Assembly: GCA_905480605.1 (NCBI GenBank)
Contig: CAJQRD010000034.1
Span: forward strand, 1 to 64,000
DNA length: 64,000 bases
Source of the DNA: an uncultured Saprospiraceae bacterium
Lineage (GTDB): Bacteria; Bacteroidota; Bacteroidia; Chitinophagales; Saprospiraceae
Reading direction: 5' to 3'
Shown piece by piece: positions 1-36,357 of the stretch (position 1 is the stretch's first letter; every line of letters begins with the position of its first letter). Both the position numbers and the translations under genes were made by a program. The notes under the pieces are model-generated. The model made no database searches and was not told the origin of the DNA. It worked only from the letters and a program-made list of their open reading frames with translations.

Positions 1-413
1 CTGTATTTTTTGCTTCAAGAGCAGCAATACCATATTTAAAAAAGGGAGAACATCCATCCATTATTAATTATACCTCTAATGCAGCTTGGACTGCCGGTGG
101 TCCAGGAGCAGGTGTTTACGGAACATCTAAAGCAGGTGTTCATGCAATAACTAGAGCTTTGGCAAAAGATTTAGCCGAATACAGAATTAGAGTTAACGCA
201 GTATCTCCAGGAACAATTGATACACCTTTTCATGCACAAATTAAAGCAACAAAACCTGAAGTATTTGCTTCTTGGGCAAATAATATTATGCTAGGAAGAC
301 TAGGTCAACCAGAAGATGTTGCTGGTGTTGTTTCTTTTTTAGCCAGCAAAGATGCTTCTTTTATTACAGCAGAAACGATCCAAATCGGAGGCGGTCAAGC
401 ATTAGGAATCTAG
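1..413 (+). CDS. SDR-family oxidoreductase, 5' end outside the window
   Basis: The frame is open from base 3 back to the window edge, so this is the C-terminal ~136 residues of a short-chain dehydrogenase/reductase of about 250 residues. Visible are the substrate-site stretch NYTSNAAW and the catalytic YGTSK pair (Tyr and Lys four apart), followed by the RVNAVSPGTIDTPF loop that closes over NAD(P)H and a typical C-terminus ending FITAETIQIGGGQ. It lies 24 bases before a second SDR and upstream of KDG kinase and KDPG aldolase, which suggests reduction of a keto-uronate such as 4-deoxy-5-erythro-hexoseulose uronate (DEH). The SDR fold is certain; the substrate is inferred from context. Confidence 0.88.
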   Translation, partial: VFFASRAAIPYLKKGEHPSIINYTSNAAWTAGGPGAGVYGTSKAGVHAITRALAKDLAEYRIRVNAVSPGTIDTPFHAQIKATKPEVFASWANNIMLGRLGQPEDVAGVVSFLASKDASFITAETIQIGGGQALGI

Positions 414-27419: not shown

Positions 27420-28022
27420 TTAAAGGATAGCTTTTTTGATTGGACAAGTCATACAGTGACTTCCTCCTCTAGCTCTTGACAGTTCACCTGACGGTGTGGT
27501 AATAATTGTTTTTTCTAATGAAGAAGCAAAACTATCATTTTCTGATTGTTTAGCTAAAAAATATTTAGAACTTAATATTGAATATCCAGATTTTTCAAAT
27601 GCATATCCTATATGCAAATTTCGATCATAAGTATTATCAATACCTGGTTTTACCGCTACCAAATTACACCCATCAGTCCATTGCTCTCTTTCTTGATATG
27701 GAGACTCACCATCGCCTGAAAAGATAAAATTCATGTTTGGATTGATCTCATTTATAAAGAAATCCCCAGTAGAAGCATATGTTGCCTTTAGACTTTCTTT
27801 TGTATGTACGATTACGTTTGACGCCAGTCCATCATAAACTATTGGTTTGAAATAAACCAAATCGTTTTGACTCACACGGGGCTCTTCAATCATTTGTGGC
27901 AAGTGTACAATATCATCAAAAAGCAATTTTTCTGCTCTTTTAGGTTTAATCCTACCAATTCCACTATCAGGCCTATTTATTAAAACGCGTTCAAGCTTAT
28001 TTATTTCTGAATCTGCTAACAT
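27420..28022 (-). CDS. Arginine deiminase-like protein with large internal deletion
   Basis: At 200 residues this is about half the usual size of the roughly 410-residue arginine deiminase. Residues 1-47 match the family N-terminus (KLERVLINRPDSGIGRIKPK, LFDDIVHLPQM). Residues 49-200 match the C-terminal third (FKPIVYDGLASNV, GESPYQEREQWTDGCNLVAVKPG, ending ARGGSHCMTCPIK). The reading frame is intact across the join at about base 27882. The nucleophile region HCMTCP is kept (Cys190), but the middle part that carries FTRD, EGGD and HIDTVF is gone, so the guanidinium-binding Asp/Glu and catalytic His are missing. Catalysis is very unlikely. It could be a remnant or a repurposed binding protein. 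Confidence 0.75.
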   Translation of the reverse strand: MLADSEINKLERVLINRPDSGIGRIKPKRAEKLLFDDIVHLPQMIEEPRVSQNDLVYFKPIVYDGLASNVIVHTKESLKATYASTGDFFINEINPNMNFIFSGDGESPYQEREQWTDGCNLVAVKPGIDNTYDRNLHIGYAFEKSGYSILSSKYFLAKQSENDSFASSLEKTIITTPSGELSRARGGSHCMTCPIKKAIL

Positions 28023-28139: not shown

Positions 28140-28826
28140 ATGTTAAAAAAATTGAAGTCTTTCTTTATTGTTGATGATAATCCTCAGGCAGAGGCTAAGT
28201 CTAAGGGTGCAGAATCTGGGGCATCTTCTTCTCCAAAAACAGCTGATTCTAAAAAACCAGTTATAAAGTTAGAAAAGCCTGTATATGATAAAAATAATCC
28301 ACCAAAAGGAAAACCAAATGAAAAATTTGTCGATATACTATTGGGTGCCATTGAAAGTAATAATGTTGAAGGATTTGATTACCTAGAGTTTAAACAAGCA
28401 CTTCAAAACTTAAGTGGTGTAGAAATGGATGAGGCTACTATGTTTAAGTCGGCCTTGGCGATGGCTAAAACAATGGGCGCGAGTAAGAAAGTGTTATTCA
28501 GCAGTGCTGATTTGTATTTGAGTGTGTTGTCAAAAGAGGAGTCAAAATTTATGGAATCCTTTAGCAAGCAAGTCAACATGCAGGTTAATAACAGGAATGA
28601 AGATATCATCAATATTGAAAAAGGTATTGCATTGAAAAATAAGCAAATTAAACAATTGCAAGGCGAAATTGAGGCTGAAGAAAAGGCATTGAATAAAAAG
28701 AAAACCAATGCCGATCAAGCAAGTGCAAAAGTAAAAGCAACTAAAGATAGTTTTTACCACTCTTATCATATTGTCTCGGAGCAAATCAAAGCAGACATTG
28801 AAAAAATGAAAAAATACCTAGGTTAA
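28140..28826 (+). CDS. Conserved hypothetical protein with coiled-coil C-terminus
   Basis: This 228-residue protein without a signal peptide has three parts: residues 1-60 are low-complexity (Ala, Ser, Lys, Pro-rich); 60-130 form a helical domain (FVDILLGAIESNNVEGFDYLEFKQALQNL); 130-228 form a long coiled coil (IALKNKQIKQLQGEIEAEEKAL). It resembles a Bacteroidota family of unknown function. It is followed 16 bases later by a small secreted protein gene. A structural or membrane-stress role is possible given the PspA-like gene nearby, but nothing in the sequence proves it. Confidence 0.72.
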   Translation: MLKKLKSFFIVDDNPQAEAKSKGAESGASSSPKTADSKKPVIKLEKPVYDKNNPPKGKPNEKFVDILLGAIESNNVEGFDYLEFKQALQNLSGVEMDEATMFKSALAMAKTMGASKKVLFSSADLYLSVLSKEESKFMESFSKQVNMQVNNRNEDIINIEKGIALKNKQIKQLQGEIEAEEKALNKKKTNADQASAKVKATKDSFYHSYHIVSEQIKADIEKMKKYLG

Positions 28827-31359: not shown

Positions 31360-31476
31360 TATATTTGTATCAAATTCATTATCAAGCGTTTTACGCGATC
31401 GCCTGATCTCGTAAACAAAAAATTCAGTAAGAGTGTTAAGCAAGTCCTTGTAGAAGTTACAAGGACTTTCTTTTTT
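31360..31476 (+). ncRNA. Candidate small RNA with two hairpins
   Basis: TATATTTG at 31360-31367 is an exact -7 box, so transcription should begin near 31374. About 100 bases later lies a strong terminator (31442-31475). Between them TTTACGCGATC (31390-31400) pairs with GATCTCGTAAA (31405-31415) with one mismatch and a GCCT loop. I see no good ORF. The 5' hairpin shares ATCTCGTAAA and the following A-run with the end of the 10514 repeat. There is no clear -33 box. Confidence 0.5.
31442..31475 (+). terminator. Strong intrinsic terminator
   Basis: AAGTCCTTGTA (31442-31452) and TACAAGGACTT (31458-31468) form a perfect 11-bp stem with a GAAGT loop, followed by TCTTTTTT. No ordinary gene precedes it on the plus strand, which implies a short non-coding transcript. 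Confidence 0.9.
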
Positions 31477-31582: not shown

Positions 31583-31658
31583 ATGGTGCAAACCATATTT
31601 TTTATACACAAACCTCATGATAACTTGCTTTCTCGTGGGCAATACGCCTACGAAATTG

Positions 31659-31690: not shown

Positions 31691-32710
31691 ATGACTGACA
31701 ATTACAAGAAAAAATCTTTTTGGAGAAAACCTGAAGGTGTAACAGGTGCTATATTTTTAATAGTTGGTTTGGTGCTAGGTGGAACGTTGATTGTAAAGTC
31801 GATAGCTGGAATTGTTGCTTTTGCTTCTACTCCTGTAGGATTGGGTGTTACTCTAGGGGTTTTAGGTATGATAATTTTCATGGCTCTAGACAATAAAGCC
31901 CGAACTTTATTGTCTTATATGTATAAATCGGCTATGCGCTGGATCACAGGTATCTTTGTTCAAATTGATCCTATTGGTATTCTTAAAAGTTATATCCAAG
32001 ACCTTAAAGGCAATCTTAAGAAAATGCGAAAGCAAATTGGTATGCTCAGAGGACAAATGCATAAGCTTAAAGAAATGATTGTCAAGAATCAAAAAGAAAT
32101 TAAAACCAATATGCTTTTGGCATCTAAAGCCAAAGAGACTCAGCAAAAATCTGTTATGATTCTAAAAAGCCGAAAAGCTGGCCGTCTTAAAGAATCAAAT
32201 ATGAAGCTTGATGATCTTTATAAAAGAATGGAAGTTCTTTATAGAGTTTTGTCCAAGATGTATGAAAATTCATTCATTCTGGCTGAAGATATTGAAGATC
32301 AAGTCAAACTTAAAGAACAGGAACGTAAAGCTATGTTAGCTGGGCATTCAGCAATGAAGTCTGCTATGTCAATAATTAAAGGTGATTCTGATAAAAAAGC
32401 AATGTTTGATCAAGCCTTGGAAGTTATAGCTGATGATGTAAGTTCTAAGGTTGGAGAAATGGAAAGGTTTATGGAGATGTCAGAAAACTTTATGTCTTCT
32501 ATAGATCTTCAAAATGGTATTTTCGAGGAAAAGGGAATGCAAATGCTAGAAGATTGGGAGAAAAAATCAACTTCACTCTTATTAGGTGAATCAAAAGAAG
32601 ATTTAATTTCTAATGCCAATGATGAAGGAAATATCTTGGACTTGAATCAACCCATCGCTCAGCCTCAAAAAGCAGATCGTTCAAATCAGTACGATAACTT
32701 TTTTGAATAA
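31691..32710 (+). CDS. PspA-like membrane protein with N-terminal transmembrane pair
   Basis: This 339-residue protein has two hydrophobic segments (GAIFLIVGLVLGGTLIV and PVGLGVTLGVLGMIIFMAL, residues 16-60). Long helices follow, with IGILKSYIQDLKGNLKKMRKQIGMLRG, resembling the PspA/IM30 hairpin. A flexible tail ends in QYDNFFE. PspA proteins sense and repair inner-membrane stress; here the helices appear to be anchored directly rather than peripheral. I start it at 31691, supported by the promoter box. It is separated by 116 bases from the binding-protein/OmpA fusion gene and may support that transporter. Similarity is structural only. Confidence 0.6.
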   Translation: MTDNYKKKSFWRKPEGVTGAIFLIVGLVLGGTLIVKSIAGIVAFASTPVGLGVTLGVLGMIIFMALDNKARTLLSYMYKSAMRWITGIFVQIDPIGILKSYIQDLKGNLKKMRKQIGMLRGQMHKLKEMIVKNQKEIKTNMLLASKAKETQQKSVMILKSRKAGRLKESNMKLDDLYKRMEVLYRVLSKMYENSFILAEDIEDQVKLKEQERKAMLAGHSAMKSAMSIIKGDSDKKAMFDQALEVIADDVSSKVGEMERFMEMSENFMSSIDLQNGIFEEKGMQMLEDWEKKSTSLLLGESKEDLISNANDEGNILDLNQPIAQPQKADRSNQYDNFFE

Positions 32711-32826
32711 CAAGAAACGAATACTGAGGTCTAATAAGTTTAGATCTTAACATTATAATATTATCTGGACATCAGATCACAATTAATTAACTAACGATCG
32801 TTTAAGATCATTTTACTTTTTATATT

Positions 32827-34470
32827 ATGGCAAAGAGATTAACAATGTTTTCAAAACTGCTGATTGTATTTCTTATACTATTGGCAATTGGTTTTGGAGG
32901 TAAATGGGTATTAAACAATACTGCATTTGGCAAAAATCTTCAGGAGAAAGCTGAGCAAGAAAGAATTGACCAAAGTGAAGAAGAAAAGCAAGAAAGCAAC
33001 AACTCCTCTAATGCTAAAACTGAAACAAACTCTAAGAACGGAGGGCTTTTCAATAATAGCAATCGAAAAGATGACAACACCTTACGTGTTCAATTGGTAA
33101 CATGGCCAGGGTACACACCGGGATTATATTTCAATGAAGGTGCTTTGGCAAATACCAGAAGTAGATTCTATAAAGACTATGGTTTTAAAGTGGAGTTTGT
33201 TAAAGAAGACGATCTTTTAAATGCAGCGGATGCTTGGGCAGCAGATGAGTTTGATATCTTGGTGCAAACTGCGGATGCATTTCCATTATATACAGCTCCA
33301 GATGAAATGGCTAGTTTAAACCCAACTGCTTTTATGCAAGTAGATTGGTCTAGAGGTGGTGATGCAATTATTGCAAAGAGAGGTATTAATTCTATCAATG
33401 ATTTGAGAGGTAAAAAAATTGCCTTAGCAGTACCTGCACCAGCACAAACAATGTTGATTACAGCATTGGAATCTGCTGGCATGTCAATAAATGATGTAAA
33501 AGTTGTAAAGACAACAGACAATATAGCTGCAGCAGAATTGTTCAATTCCCCAGATATTGATGCAGCTGTTGTTTGGAGCCCTTTTGATATTGAAGCAACG
33601 TCTAAGGTTCCTGGCTCTAAAATTCTTTTGACTACAGTTGAGCAATCTCATATCATCGGTGATATTATGTTCGCTAAAAAAGAAGTTATCCAAGCTAAAA
33701 GAGAAATGTTTAATGGGTTTTACGAAGGTTGGATGAAGGGTGTTGCAGAATTAAAAGATCCAGGTAATAGAAGAAAAGGAGTGAAATACTTGGCTGAATT
33801 TTTACAATTTCCGGAAGCAGATGCTGAAGCGATGATGTCTACAGTTCACTTGGCATCTCATGGTGACAACATGAATTTCTTTGGTATAAATAAATCCTTT
33901 AGAGGAATGACAGGTGGTGACCTTTACAATAAAATGAATAAGAAGTTTTTCCAGATGAAGGACAATCCTAAGTTGGCACCAAATTGGAAAAAAGTGATTG
34001 CAACTGGTCCAATTATTAATGCAGACTCTAAACTTAGAGGCGCTGCTTATGCTGCAGAAGGTGCTAAAGAATTTGAGCCAGCGACTGCAAAAGAGAAATC
34101 GGCCCCCGCTTTGGCATCAAAGCCAATCAGTATCAATTTTGCATCAGGGCAATACAAATTATCAGAAAATGCTAAAACAATAATTGATATTCAATTTGCA
34201 GAGGTTGCTAAATCATTTGGTAATGTACGTGTAAGAGTTGAAGGTAACACAGATAATGTTGGGGGCAGGCAAATGAATATGAACTTGTCTCAAAAAAGAG
34301 CACAATCGGTTGCTGATTATTTGAGAATGACTTATAATATGAGTGCCAATAGATTTGTAGTGGTAGGTAACGGTCCAGATAAGCCTGTTAAAGGTTGTGA
34401 AACAAACAGTACTGCAAATTGTAAAGCACAAAATCGAAGAACTGAATTTCAATTGTTAGCAGTCCAATAA
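32827..34470 (+). CDS. Membrane-anchored ABC substrate-binding protein fused to OmpA domain
   Basis: This 547-residue protein has: a transmembrane anchor at 8-27 with no lipobox; a Glu/Ser/Asn-rich linker at 40-85; and an NMT1/SsuA-type periplasmic binding domain at about 86-400, with TWPGYTPGLYFNEG, FDILVQTADAFPLY, INDLRGKKIALAVPAP and DIDAAVVWSPFDIEA. An OmpA-like peptidoglycan-binding domain follows at about 430-547, with INFASGQYKL, VRVEGNTDNVGG and NLSQKRAQSVADYL, where the Asp and Arg contact diaminopimelate. A Cys pair sits in the last loop. The next two genes are the matching permease and ATPase. The design would hold the binding protein between membrane and cell wall. Substrate unknown; nitrate, sulfonate and riboflavin-precursor families share this fold. 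Confidence 0.88.
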   Translation: MAKRLTMFSKLLIVFLILLAIGFGGKWVLNNTAFGKNLQEKAEQERIDQSEEEKQESNNSSNAKTETNSKNGGLFNNSNRKDDNTLRVQLVTWPGYTPGLYFNEGALANTRSRFYKDYGFKVEFVKEDDLLNAADAWAADEFDILVQTADAFPLYTAPDEMASLNPTAFMQVDWSRGGDAIIAKRGINSINDLRGKKIALAVPAPAQTMLITALESAGMSINDVKVVKTTDNIAAAELFNSPDIDAAVVWSPFDIEATSKVPGSKILLTTVEQSHIIGDIMFAKKEVIQAKREMFNGFYEGWMKGVAELKDPGNRRKGVKYLAEFLQFPEADAEAMMSTVHLASHGDNMNFFGINKSFRGMTGGDLYNKMNKKFFQMKDNPKLAPNWKKVIATGPIINADSKLRGAAYAAEGAKEFEPATAKEKSAPALASKPISINFASGQYKLSENAKTIIDIQFAEVAKSFGNVRVRVEGNTDNVGGRQMNMNLSQKRAQSVADYLRMTYNMSANRFVVVGNGPDKPVKGCETNSTANCKAQNRRTEFQLLAVQ

Positions 34471-34478
34471 TTTAAGTA

Positions 34479-35564
34479 GTGAATTGGCTATTTAAATTAA
34501 GAGGTGAAATACCATCGCAATGGAAACTTCCTTTGACGCTAATTGGATTAGGAATTATTATTGCTATTTGGATACTTTTAACAGCAGGGGAGTCACCATT
34601 AACACCTAGTAAAATTTTACCAAAGCCCGGTGATGTATTAGGAGCCTTTGGCGAGATGTATAATGAGAATGACCTTGTTAAAAATATGTTTAGATCTCTT
34701 GGTTTAAATTTAGCTGGTTATGTTAAAGCGGTATTGTGGACTATTCCAATTGGTTTTTTAATTGGCCTTTTTCCTATAATCCGGGGAATGTTTCAAAAAC
34801 CCTTGGATGCCATACGATTTGTTCCAATCGCTGCAGCATTGGGTTTGTTTATTGGCTGGTTTGGTATTGGAGCAGATATGAAGGTTAACTTTTTGGCCTT
34901 TGGTATCTTTATATTTCTCACACCAATTGTCGTTCAGAGAATTTTTGAAGTAAAAGATGTTTACTTGAAAACAGTTTATACAATTGGTGCTACTGATTGG
35001 CAAACTATCAAGACGGTATATTTTCCTTCAGTGTTTTCAAAACTGATTGATGACATCAGAATTCTTACAGCGATTTCATGGACATATATCGTAGTAATAG
35101 AAACTATTAATTCTGAGCAAGGAGGTTTAGGTGCTCTGACATATATGATGAGAAGAACAAGTCAGCCAGACAAAATGTATGCTGCATTCTTACTCATTAT
35201 TTTAATTGGGATTATTCAGGATCGAATTTTTGTACGTCTTGACAATGAGTTATTTCCTCATAAATTCCAATTGAAAAATCATAACAAATACGGACAAATA
35301 AAGGCCACAAGCATTTTTGAAGCGATTGCTGATTTTGCGTTTACGGCATTCACTTGGACAATTCTTGGGGTATATATTTTGGTCGCGATTAATGAAGTGA
35401 CTGGTGTTTTATCTGATATCAAAATTTTGGATTACTTATTTGGAGATACATGTTGGGCTTTTCATTTCCTTATGATTTCGATTATATTTTATAAGGCATA
35501 TAATTTTATCACAAAGCACAAATCCAAACTTTCTTCACCACCTAAAGAAGTAGAAAATGTTTGA
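34479..35564 (+). CDS. ABC transporter permease (SsuC/TauC family) with C-terminal extension
   Basis: This 361-residue permease starts with GTG 8 bases after the binding-protein stop. The BPD_transp_1 core spans about residues 70-255, with the ATPase-docking loop around IGATDWQTIKTVYFPSVFSKLIDDIR. Unlike the usual 250-280-residue permease, it continues with about 90 residues carrying two more membrane helices (FAFTAFTWTILGVYILVAI, CWAFHFLMISIIFYKAY). These could contact the anchor helix of the partner protein. It overlaps the ATPase start by 8 bases. Confidence 0.9.
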   Translation: MNWLFKLRGEIPSQWKLPLTLIGLGIIIAIWILLTAGESPLTPSKILPKPGDVLGAFGEMYNENDLVKNMFRSLGLNLAGYVKAVLWTIPIGFLIGLFPIIRGMFQKPLDAIRFVPIAAALGLFIGWFGIGADMKVNFLAFGIFIFLTPIVVQRIFEVKDVYLKTVYTIGATDWQTIKTVYFPSVFSKLIDDIRILTAISWTYIVVIETINSEQGGLGALTYMMRRTSQPDKMYAAFLLIILIGIIQDRIFVRLDNELFPHKFQLKNHNKYGQIKATSIFEAIADFAFTAFTWTILGVYILVAINEVTGVLSDIKILDYLFGDTCWAFHFLMISIIFYKAYNFITKHKSKLSSPPKEVENV

Positions 35565-36357
35565 AGATAATCCAAATCAAAAGAATATTGTTGAGCTTCG
35601 TGGCATCAGTCAGAGTTATGATGGTGGTAAGAACTGGATCATGAAGGATTGTGAATTTATAATTGAAGACAAACCTGATCAAGGTCAATTTGTTGTTGTA
35701 CTTGGAATGTCAGGAAGTGGTAAATCTACGCTCTTAAGATATATTGCAGGTTTACAACAACCTACAAAAGGGACTGTAATGGTCAATGGAAATCCAGTGG
35801 GTAAGAAAGAACGTGTCAGCATGGTTTTTCAACAATACTCATCTTTGCCTTGGTATACTGTTTTGGAAAACGTGGGTTTGGCATTGGAATTCCAAGGTGT
35901 ATCAAAAGCCGAGAGAGACGAACGGGCCATGGAATTGATCAAGATGGTTGGACTGGAAGGACACGAGCATAAGTTCGCTCAATATCCTACATTAAGTGGC
36001 GGTCAATTGCAACGTGTAGCTATTGCAAGAAGTCTCTTAGCCAACCCAAAAATATTGTTGATGGATGAACCATTCGGAGCGTTGGACATTAAAACTAGGT
36101 TGACTATGCAAGATCTTTTAACTTCAATCTGGCATAAATTTCAGTCTACAATAATCTTTGTTACTCATGATATTTCAGAAGCAGTTTACTTGGCAGATGA
36201 TATTTATATTCTTAAATCTCCACCTTCAAGATTTGTAGAACATATTCATGTTGATTTGCCTTTAGTTCGAGATCGGATGACAAAGAGAGATCCTAAGTAT
36301 ACAGAATTTGTACATCTTGTTGAAGATAAAATGATAGAAGTCGCTGATTTAAAATAA
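35557..36357 (+). CDS. ABC transporter ATP-binding protein (SsuB/TauB family)
   Basis: This 266-residue ATPase has Walker A GMSGSGKSTLL, a Q-loop (MVFQQYSSLPW), the signature LSGGQLQRVAIARSLL, Walker B ILLMDEPFGALD and the switch histidine in FVTHDISEA. The Q-loop and overall length match nitrate/sulfonate/taurine importers. It energises the permease at 34479 and should be its only ATPase, as a homodimer. The start overlaps the permease stop. MeaB follows with a gap of 8 bases. Confidence 0.95.
   Translation: MFEDNPNQKNIVELRGISQSYDGGKNWIMKDCEFIIEDKPDQGQFVVVLGMSGSGKSTLLRYIAGLQQPTKGTVMVNGNPVGKKERVSMVFQQYSSLPWYTVLENVGLALEFQGVSKAERDERAMELIKMVGLEGHEHKFAQYPTLSGGQLQRVAIARSLLANPKILLMDEPFGALDIKTRLTMQDLLTSIWHKFQSTIIFVTHDISEAVYLADDIYILKSPPSRFVEHIHVDLPLVRDRMTKRDPKYTEFVHLVEDKMIEVADLK

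Follow-up and report, generated by a model that had tools for sequence, protein, structure and literature searches.

The binding proteins of ATP-binding cassette (ABC) importers of the NMT1/SsuA/TauT type are normally soluble or lipid-anchored. The locus considered here lies in a stretch of 64,000 nucleotides (nt) from an uncultured Saprospiraceae bacterium (positions 1 to 64,000 of contig CAJQRD010000034.1, assembly GCA_905480605.1; 'the window' denotes this whole stretch). It combines the substrate-binding protein (SBP), permease and ATPase families of such importers with a receptor of a different build: the SBP forms one chain with an N-terminal hydrophobic helix, probably an uncleaved membrane anchor, and with a C-terminal OmpA domain, and the gene for a PspA-like membrane protein lies just upstream. 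What kind of machine holds its receptor in this way, and what has a PspA relative to do with it? An earlier note on this DNA had taken the four genes for a wall-tethered importer guarded by the PspA-like protein. The set does recur as a unit, but the note overlooked a fifth gene, c4, and the occurrence of the whole in viruses: the cassette c4, PspA-like, fusion, permease, ATPase is common to Saprospiraceae-type bacteria and large phages. Our preferred reading, to which we assign a probability of about 0.55, is that the cassette would encode a type I importer that is anchored to the wall and works together with a scaffold of the PspA/ESCRT-III kind.

Conservation of the cassette in bacteria

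Relatives of the fusion were collected by scanning 84,980 species genomes with two patterns, one of them DWSRGGDA; of 567 pattern matches, 535 were relatives, and the best 80 of these were analysed. Bacterial locus counts refer to these 80 loci plus the window (81), with neighbouring frames clustered by similarity. The records are titled Saprospiraceae, Lewinellaceae, Saprospirales, Chitinophagales or Aureispira, or only Bacteroidota or Bacteroidia. Whether the gene order recurs had been left as a check by the earlier note: it does, in the common order c4, PspA-like, fusion, permease, ATPase, with all five genes in 59 of the 81 loci and c4 in 70. Among loci whose contig leaves room, window included, 75 of 76 have the PspA-like gene, 48 of 49 have c4, 63 of 67 the permease and 62 of 67 the ATPase. 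Distances are short: 75 of 76 pairs have the start of the fusion within 400 nt after the PspA-like gene, and the same holds for the permease after the fusion in 70 of 74 and for the PspA-like gene after c4 in 63 of 70. In the window itself 116 nt separate the PspA-like gene from the fusion and 8 nt the fusion from the permease; the permease and ATPase genes share 8 nt, and two other genes lie between c4 and the PspA-like gene. The exceptions are L108, which lacks the PspA-like gene, L092, which lacks c4, L144, which lacks the ATPase, and L103, L105, L118 and L128, which have neither permease nor ATPase near the fusion; in the genomes of L103, L118 and L128 a permease with an adjacent ATPase is found elsewhere, the permease frame being interrupted in that of L128. 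SBP identity across the loci ranges from 43 to 85 percent.

A plain protein search with the fusion gave matches in 28 of 60 relatives. At E<=1e-10 the binding domain alone was found in 131 of the 199 genomes from the window's family, and the whole-domain matches (table read by eye) lie nearly all in open reading frames (ORFs) of about 490-585 amino acids (aa), the length of the fusion. The case named in the earlier note as refuting a conserved system, OmpA and binding domains always encoded separately, did not arise, the matches of this search with the binding domain lying mostly in fusion-length frames. In a sample of the phylum, the SBP alone matched two of 395 genomes (the window's own and one partial match), and the full fusion profile matched one, the own genome, with three candidates scored per genome shown and OmpA matches probably crowding these. 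Since the family count of 131/199 stands against 2/395 in the phylum, the fusion form looks like a trait of the family and not of the phylum.

The frame listing and translations of the window, together with Pfam domains, confirmed the four ORFs where the earlier note had placed them (Table 1). Its picture of a receptor that begins with a membrane anchor and ends with an OmpA domain, in a conserved unit with permease, ATPase and PspA-like protein, also proved right. The binding domain scores 42.9 bits with Pfam NMT1 (cut-off 20.5). The C-terminal part is an OmpA-like peptidoglycan-binding domain (PF00691) both by score, 60.8 bits against a gathering cut-off of 27.2, and by its Asp/Arg pair. The retention of this pair, already pointed out in the earlier note, is general: Asp476 and Arg491, the diaminopimelate contacts in OmpA structures, are identical in 81/81 aligned bacterial fusions, where the Asp count is partly biased because one of the two scan patterns included D476 (not R491), and both are also kept in 19/19 rows of an alignment collected by plain protein search (A1) and in 19/19 viral fusions from IMG/VR, found by patterns outside the OmpA part.

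At the other end, hydropathy gives one N-terminal hydrophobic helix. Such a helix is strong in all 73 fusions with an RLT start, among which a lipobox occurs in none and an AxA motif in one; the count omits eight of the 81 rows, two truncated and six with KLT or QLT starts. The following linker measures about 56 residues in the window (29-84) and 25-64 over 79 rows (median 49), so that the 80 residues given in the earlier note were too many. Mean top-residue frequency is 0.31 in the linker, 0.72 in the SBP and 0.76 in the OmpA domain, and the residues of the SBP that are invariant in 79 rows include W93, D173-G177, D179, W250 and P252. In a loop of the OmpA domain (window 34396-34422), Cys524 and Cys532 are invariant in 79/79 rows of the named loci and missing from several other relatives (A1); a disulfide between them is possible.

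Table 1. Features of the cassette and its surroundings in the window
Feature	Position	Strand	Size or residues	Remarks
c4	28140..28826	+	228 aa	Opens the cassette; recurrent
Terminator-like stem with T-run, upstream of PspA-like gene	31442..31468	+	12 pairs	Consensus match only
PspA-like gene	31691..32710	+	339 aa	Two membrane helices, then long helical hairpin
Anchor-SBP-OmpA fusion	32827..34470	+	547 aa	Pfam OmpA and NMT1 above cut-off
Fusion, N-terminal membrane helix	32839..32895	+	Residues 5-23	Hydropathy; probably uncleaved
Fusion, variable linker	32911..33078	+	Residues 29-84	Ser/Asn/Gly/Asp-rich; low column conservation
Fusion, substrate-binding domain, NMT1/SsuA type	33079..34035	+	Residues ~85-403	Pfam NMT1 114-309
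Fusion, OmpA domain	34126..34467	+	Residues 434-547	Pfam OmpA 438-528
OmpA Asp476	34252-34254	+		Alignment
OmpA Arg491	34297-34299	+		Alignment
Permease	34479..35564	+	361 aa	GTG start; type I importer family; BPD_transp_1
Permease, C-terminal two-helix tail	35265..35561	+	Residues 263-361	Hydropathy
ABC ATPase	35557..36357	+	266 aa	ABC_tran

The cassette on phage contigs

A tblastn search with a relative from a Vibrio plasmid matched the 595-kb uncultured phage LR756511.1, and a viral scan with the Vibrio fusion gave no match. Scanning IMG/VR with the alignment of the binding domain returned 19 contigs, or 16 distinct ones after merging three pairs with identical fetched stretches. In 12 of the 16, c4, PspA-like gene, fusion, permease and ATPase stand in the window's order on one strand; a further contig, L225, has the first four genes without the ATPase. 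The c4 profile matches 14 of the 19 contigs, and the viral fusions keep the N-terminal helix and the linker. Conservation of DWSRGGDA in this set is partly by construction, because it was a search pattern. Three contigs (L232, L234 and L237) hold more distant fusions with no PspA-like match; in L232, RtcB and a weak AAA_5 match lie nearby.

Phage hallmark genes were sought on 17 of the 19 IMG/VR contigs and on LR756511.1, two contigs being omitted as their fetched stretch is identical to another's. Carriage by phages is documented by three contigs that combine the cassette with two head genes each: terminase and portal in G629 (L221, 223 kb), major head protein and terminase in G634 (L226, 362 kb), and terminase and portal in G639 (L231, 435 kb). 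Two others, G638 and G642 (L230 and L236; 216 and 392 kb, sharing an identical 16.9-kb stretch), have the cassette and a terminase only. The portal and terminase genes of G639 have a transposase gene between them. Of ten cassette-neighbourhood proteins scanned from L221, L226 and L231, seven match PHROGs families: RtcB, tRNA nucleotidyltransferase, tRNA-His guanylyltransferase, nicotinamide phosphoribosyltransferase, a Ku-like protein, a metal-dependent hydrolase and ADP-ribosylglycohydrolase. Since such genes also occur in cells, these matches are supportive only. The L226 fusion itself matches phrog_25518 (526 positions) over residues 78-501 of 509, a family whose function is not named in PHROGs; fusion-type proteins are therefore already present, unnamed, in phage collections. 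In a tree of the PspA-like protein, 13 phage and 18 chosen bacterial loci are split by one branch (96/95); for the fusion, the phage/bacterial split appears in only 60 percent of bootstrap trees.

How much of this is new? The earlier note knew of no functional description of such a gene set, which was wrong in part, and its central idea has already been published as a prediction. Ravi et al. (2024; PMC11237479) describe PspA/TM-Snf7/AAA+ operons with an ABC ATPase, a permease and a PBPB-OmpA protein (for example OGG56892.1), for which they propose solute transport linked to membrane remodelling. The gene set found here may correspond to theirs, our PspA assignment lying below threshold; in the example they give from Bacteroidetes there is also a third gene for a coiled coil (PMC11237479), possibly c4. 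Whereas their operons include AAA+ proteins (PMC11237479), none was recognised as recurrent here: among clustered neighbours from five genes upstream to six downstream, no cluster as frequent as c4 was AAA+ by sequence, the flanks having had no AAA-domain scan. According to these authors it is unknown what controls the assembly of PspA homologues that have no AAA ATPase associated with them (PMC11237479), and the cassette offers concrete candidate partners, c4 and a putative wall-gripping importer, for a two-helix PspA relative. A phage-borne cassette was not found by term search in the main text of PMC11237479, a figure legend of which says that viral lineages were included, nor in literature searches whose coverage excluded preprints and most subscription papers. 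What is new here is the whole five-gene cassette, in the same order, on viral contigs.

Importer, scaffold and competing explanations

The transport genes themselves point to a type I ABC importer of the NMT1/SsuA/TauT group, all three components scoring above Pfam cut-offs: in addition to the SBP, the permease reaches 40 bits with BPD_transp_1 (cut-off 26.4, E 4.6e-10) and the ATPase 109.7 bits with ABC_tran (cut-off 25, E 2.2e-31), the latter with Walker A, LSGGQ signature, Walker B and THD switch-histidine motifs. Equivalog cut-offs of NCBIfam models with a named substrate were missed (TIGR03427, 79.8/333.9 bits; TauC, 71/342; taurine ATPase, 203.7/357). Naming the cargo was set aside, the best SBP model being the urea-type TIGR03427, far under its cut-off. 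A hint of another kind comes from 11 loci, all among the most distant from the window (45-52 percent fusion identity), in which an enzyme gene is inserted between permease and ATPase (for instance L132:5102-5782). Both members scanned belong to the Haem_oxygenas_2/TENA families, the one whose fold was set against solved structures most resembles 4-aminobenzoate synthase (CADD-like) and CT610, and all 11 keep the motifs ENxWEEHG and HxxxDxxHY, with residues of a kind that act as metal ligands. This arrangement fits import of the enzyme's substrate.

Under the preferred reading, the fusion would be held in the inner membrane by its uncleaved N-terminal helix and present its ligand-binding domain on the flexible linker, and its OmpA domain would grip peptidoglycan, as MotB-type stator proteins do. 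Anchored to both membrane and wall, the receptor would therefore be kept beside the permease and ATPase at fixed wall positions, and would pass a small ligand on to them in the ordinary import cycle of type I systems. The PspA-like protein, with its two membrane helices, would build an ESCRT-III-like scaffold that surrounds the importer at the inner face and touches it, and the helical c4 protein would be a partner of this scaffold. Uptake that depends on wall position or tension, as the earlier note had suggested, is no more than possible.

How good is the case for a PspA relative? The protein, whose ORF opens at 31583 and whose start in agreement with the family is 31691, has two hydrophobic membrane helices (17-35 and 48-66) ahead of a helical hairpin, modelled as helices 94-149 and 153-222 with a mean predicted local distance difference test (pLDDT) score of 72.2. 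In the window it matches no Pfam family at E<=0.01. The PspA family PF04012 appears for three of 14 family members, at best with E 0.0041 and under the cut-off; for a paralogue in the same genome, on contig C114, with E 1.8e-6 and 28.8 bits (profile 22-186; gathering score 33.9); and for two of three phage members scanned, with E 5.2e-6 and 3.7e-4, starting at profile 21 and 23, the bit scores ranging from 20.6 to 26.7. Because the matches begin at profile 21-23, the two membrane helices stand in the place of the first amphipathic helix of PspA, and no such helix (about profile 1-21) was found in the PspA-like protein. In an hhalign comparison with 17 above-cut-off PspA sequences, DPIGILKSYIQDL pairs with DPxKMxEQxIREM at the start of the hairpin, and the top Foldseek match of the model is VIPP1 (probability 1.00, but E 0.18). 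A profile search of the PDB with the family returned only unrelated coiled-coil or helical chains, at E >=1.7. PspA itself is above cut-off in none of 20 genomes, own genome included, and in 59 of 148 genomes across the phylum. We call the partner a divergent PspA/ESCRT-III-like protein, a remote PspA/IM30 relative and not a Pfam-grade PspA: of the earlier note's 'PspA-like', the two-helix membrane protein and a remote PspA signal stand, and the signal falls under the Pfam threshold. Its C-terminal peptide NQYDx[FL]F (window 32681-32707) is kept in 65 of 76 bacterial rows and is possibly a docking motif; several viral members likewise end near aromatic residues.

For c4, AlphaFold gives a short N-terminal helix, a disordered stretch, three short helices and a helix of 112 residues (mean pLDDT 81.5). 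No membrane helix was seen by eye, no Pfam family lies above cut-off, a fold search found nothing (best E 3.3), and comparison with PspA and with the PspA-like profile by hhalign gave nothing convincing. The transporter is not required for the pair to occur: a second c4/PspA-like pair, with other genes around it, stands on contig C114 of the same genome (L148:125-5756), and such pairs are also present in relatives. In L148 the pair is followed by an ApbE-like gene and an outer-membrane-type gene (names by eye), an order repeated in L160 and L161.

Several of our own results weigh against coupling an importer to such a scaffold, or against its carriage by phages. The PspA kinship is weak: every PF04012 score stays under the gathering score of 33.9 bits, hhalign against PspA reports a probability of only 15 percent (E 0.0018), and in a structural comparison (VIA) BAR domains outscore VIPP1 (Z 11.5 against 9.6), so that the hairpin could be a common arrangement. 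As hhalign finds no real relation, it is gene order that ties c4 to the PspA-like protein. The 80 bacterial loci, as the best of 535, are close relatives and favour full-length fusions. The permease tail, too, is not part of the core mechanism. In bacteria it adds about 100 residues with two hydrophobic helices, and the earlier note's observation of it in the window extends to 67 of 69 usable permeases (of 74 aligned rows) with at least two such helices past residue 262, 55 with two and 12 with three; most phage versions, however, lack it, 12 of the 13 distinct viral permeases beside a PspA-like gene having only 260-286 aa. The L226 frame has 329 aa, and its permease domain runs nearly to the C-terminus.

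On the viral side, hallmarks are present on five of 14 cassette-bearing contigs, or four of 13 distinct ones, and the other nine have none above cut-off. Many viral contigs are fragments. By model, the terminase model PF03237 was found in 4/18 contigs, Gp23 above cut-off in 2/18 (G628 and G631 having only short stretches under it) and the terminase model phrog_675 in 4/20, a set that includes two bacterial genomes, both without a match. Among cellular control genomes the same models match 6/14 (PF03237), 3/14 (phrog_675) and 0/14 (Gp23); a terminase alone is therefore weak proof of a phage contig, since terminase models match the controls as prophages would. In the 20-kb stretch read of G637 (L229, 452 kb) the coding share is 0.75 and both strands carry genes, and the hallmark search found no hallmark on this contig.

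Three other explanations have to be set against a wall-anchored importer with a scaffold. The first, rather unlikely in our estimate, is a sensor or remodelling machine in which the binding domain reports the ligand or the state of the wall and the ABC ATPase signals conformationally to the PspA-like scaffold, on the model of FtsEX-type ABC proteins, which drive wall enzymes. It would account for the constant pairing with the PspA-like protein and c4, for the two extra helices of the permease tail in bacteria, and for Vibrio plasmids, in which a single permease and a single ATPase go with two SBP-OmpA fusions and a plain SBP. It sits poorly with a permease and an ATPase that look like ordinary parts of a type I importer, with the many invariant residues of the binding domain, and with the inserted enzyme gene in 11 loci, which fits imported cargo. 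The second is improbable: an ordinary nutrient importer with anchors that do no more than retain its receptor, and with the PspA-like gene and c4 as neighbours by regulation only. That c4 and the PspA-like gene occur without the transporter, at the paralogue locus of the same genome and in other genomes, and that permease and ATPase lie away from the fusion in three loci, speaks for such a loose association; yet the neighbourhood is kept across the deep divergence of the SBP and in phage contigs with other flanks. The third, less probable still and combinable with the other readings, takes the N-terminal helix for a cleaved signal and the fusion for a free, wall-bound periplasmic receptor, for which the window has a loosely acceptable site by eye (Ala-Phe-Gly near residue 35), but AxA and lipobox motifs are as good as absent from the stretch examined in the 73 members, and the IMG/VR versions keep both helix and linker.

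Related operons and minor features of the window

The Vibrio plasmid relative belongs to an operon in which permease, ATPase and a plain SBP accompany two SBP-OmpA fusions, vWA, TelA and a two-helix coiled coil, with the same layout in the three records viewed (L215:4742-16304, from Vibrio rotiferianus pAM7, L216 and L217) of six with matches. As in the window, anchor, SBP and OmpA are joined in one chain, at 26 percent identity over 420 aligned positions that cover both domains, and permease, ATPase and a two-helix coiled-coil protein are present; in contrast to it, there are two fusions, and TelA and vWA take the place of PspA-like protein and c4. The SBP part of the Vibrio fusions is at or under the Pfam cut-off by Pfam alone, and their two-helix coiled coil shows no detectable kinship to the PspA-like family. 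The fusion as such is not new, because plasmid records already name one of the proteins ('phosphate ABC transporter substrate-binding/OmpA family protein').

The 595-kb phage LR756511.1 has in a row two SBP-OmpA fusions, vWA, a two-helix coiled coil, a weakly PspA-like protein, an SBP, a permease and an ATPase (L218:7135-15697). The protein in TelA's place, of 277 aa, scores weakly with the PspA profile (E 3.6e-4, small set searched). The OmpA Asp is not always kept among these Vibrio and phage relatives, one Vibrio fusion having Ser instead. A possible lipobox is seen by eye in the SBP of LR756511.1.

A broader reading, which we hold tentatively, goes further. Large and huge phages would deploy the complete wall-anchored importer and an ESCRT-III-like scaffold during infection, keeping the host inner membrane sealed and supplied; the cassette would have been exchanged with Saprospiraceae as a unit; and it would form one branch of a wider class that pairs wall-gripping receptors with helical scaffolds, others having TelA and vWA on Vibrio plasmids and vWA in the 595-kb phage. 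The same set in bacteria and giant phages suggests exchange of whole envelope-maintenance machines. PspA is the classic 'phage shock' protein, and if contigs of 223-435 kb that hold the five genes in this order together with genes for terminase and for capsid or portal are taken as phages, then phages would carry an envelope-protection system named after the damage they themselves cause. Phages also encode PstS-like binding proteins, which are likewise virus-borne SBPs; here a full importer with putative scaffold genes of its own would be added to the known viral borrowings.

Around the cassette, no Rfam family was found between 27000 and 40000 of the window, and promoter-like sites are no commoner in the stretch than in shuffles (36 against 38.3). 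Terminator-like sites number nine, compared with a shuffled mean of 4.7 (standard deviation 2.2); the one upstream of the PspA-like gene is listed in Table 1. On the minus strand, at 27420-28022, lies a gene of 200 aa that we take for deiminase-like; its intact relatives have about 415-440 aa, and it resembles a decayed copy, because the middle of the protein is missing.

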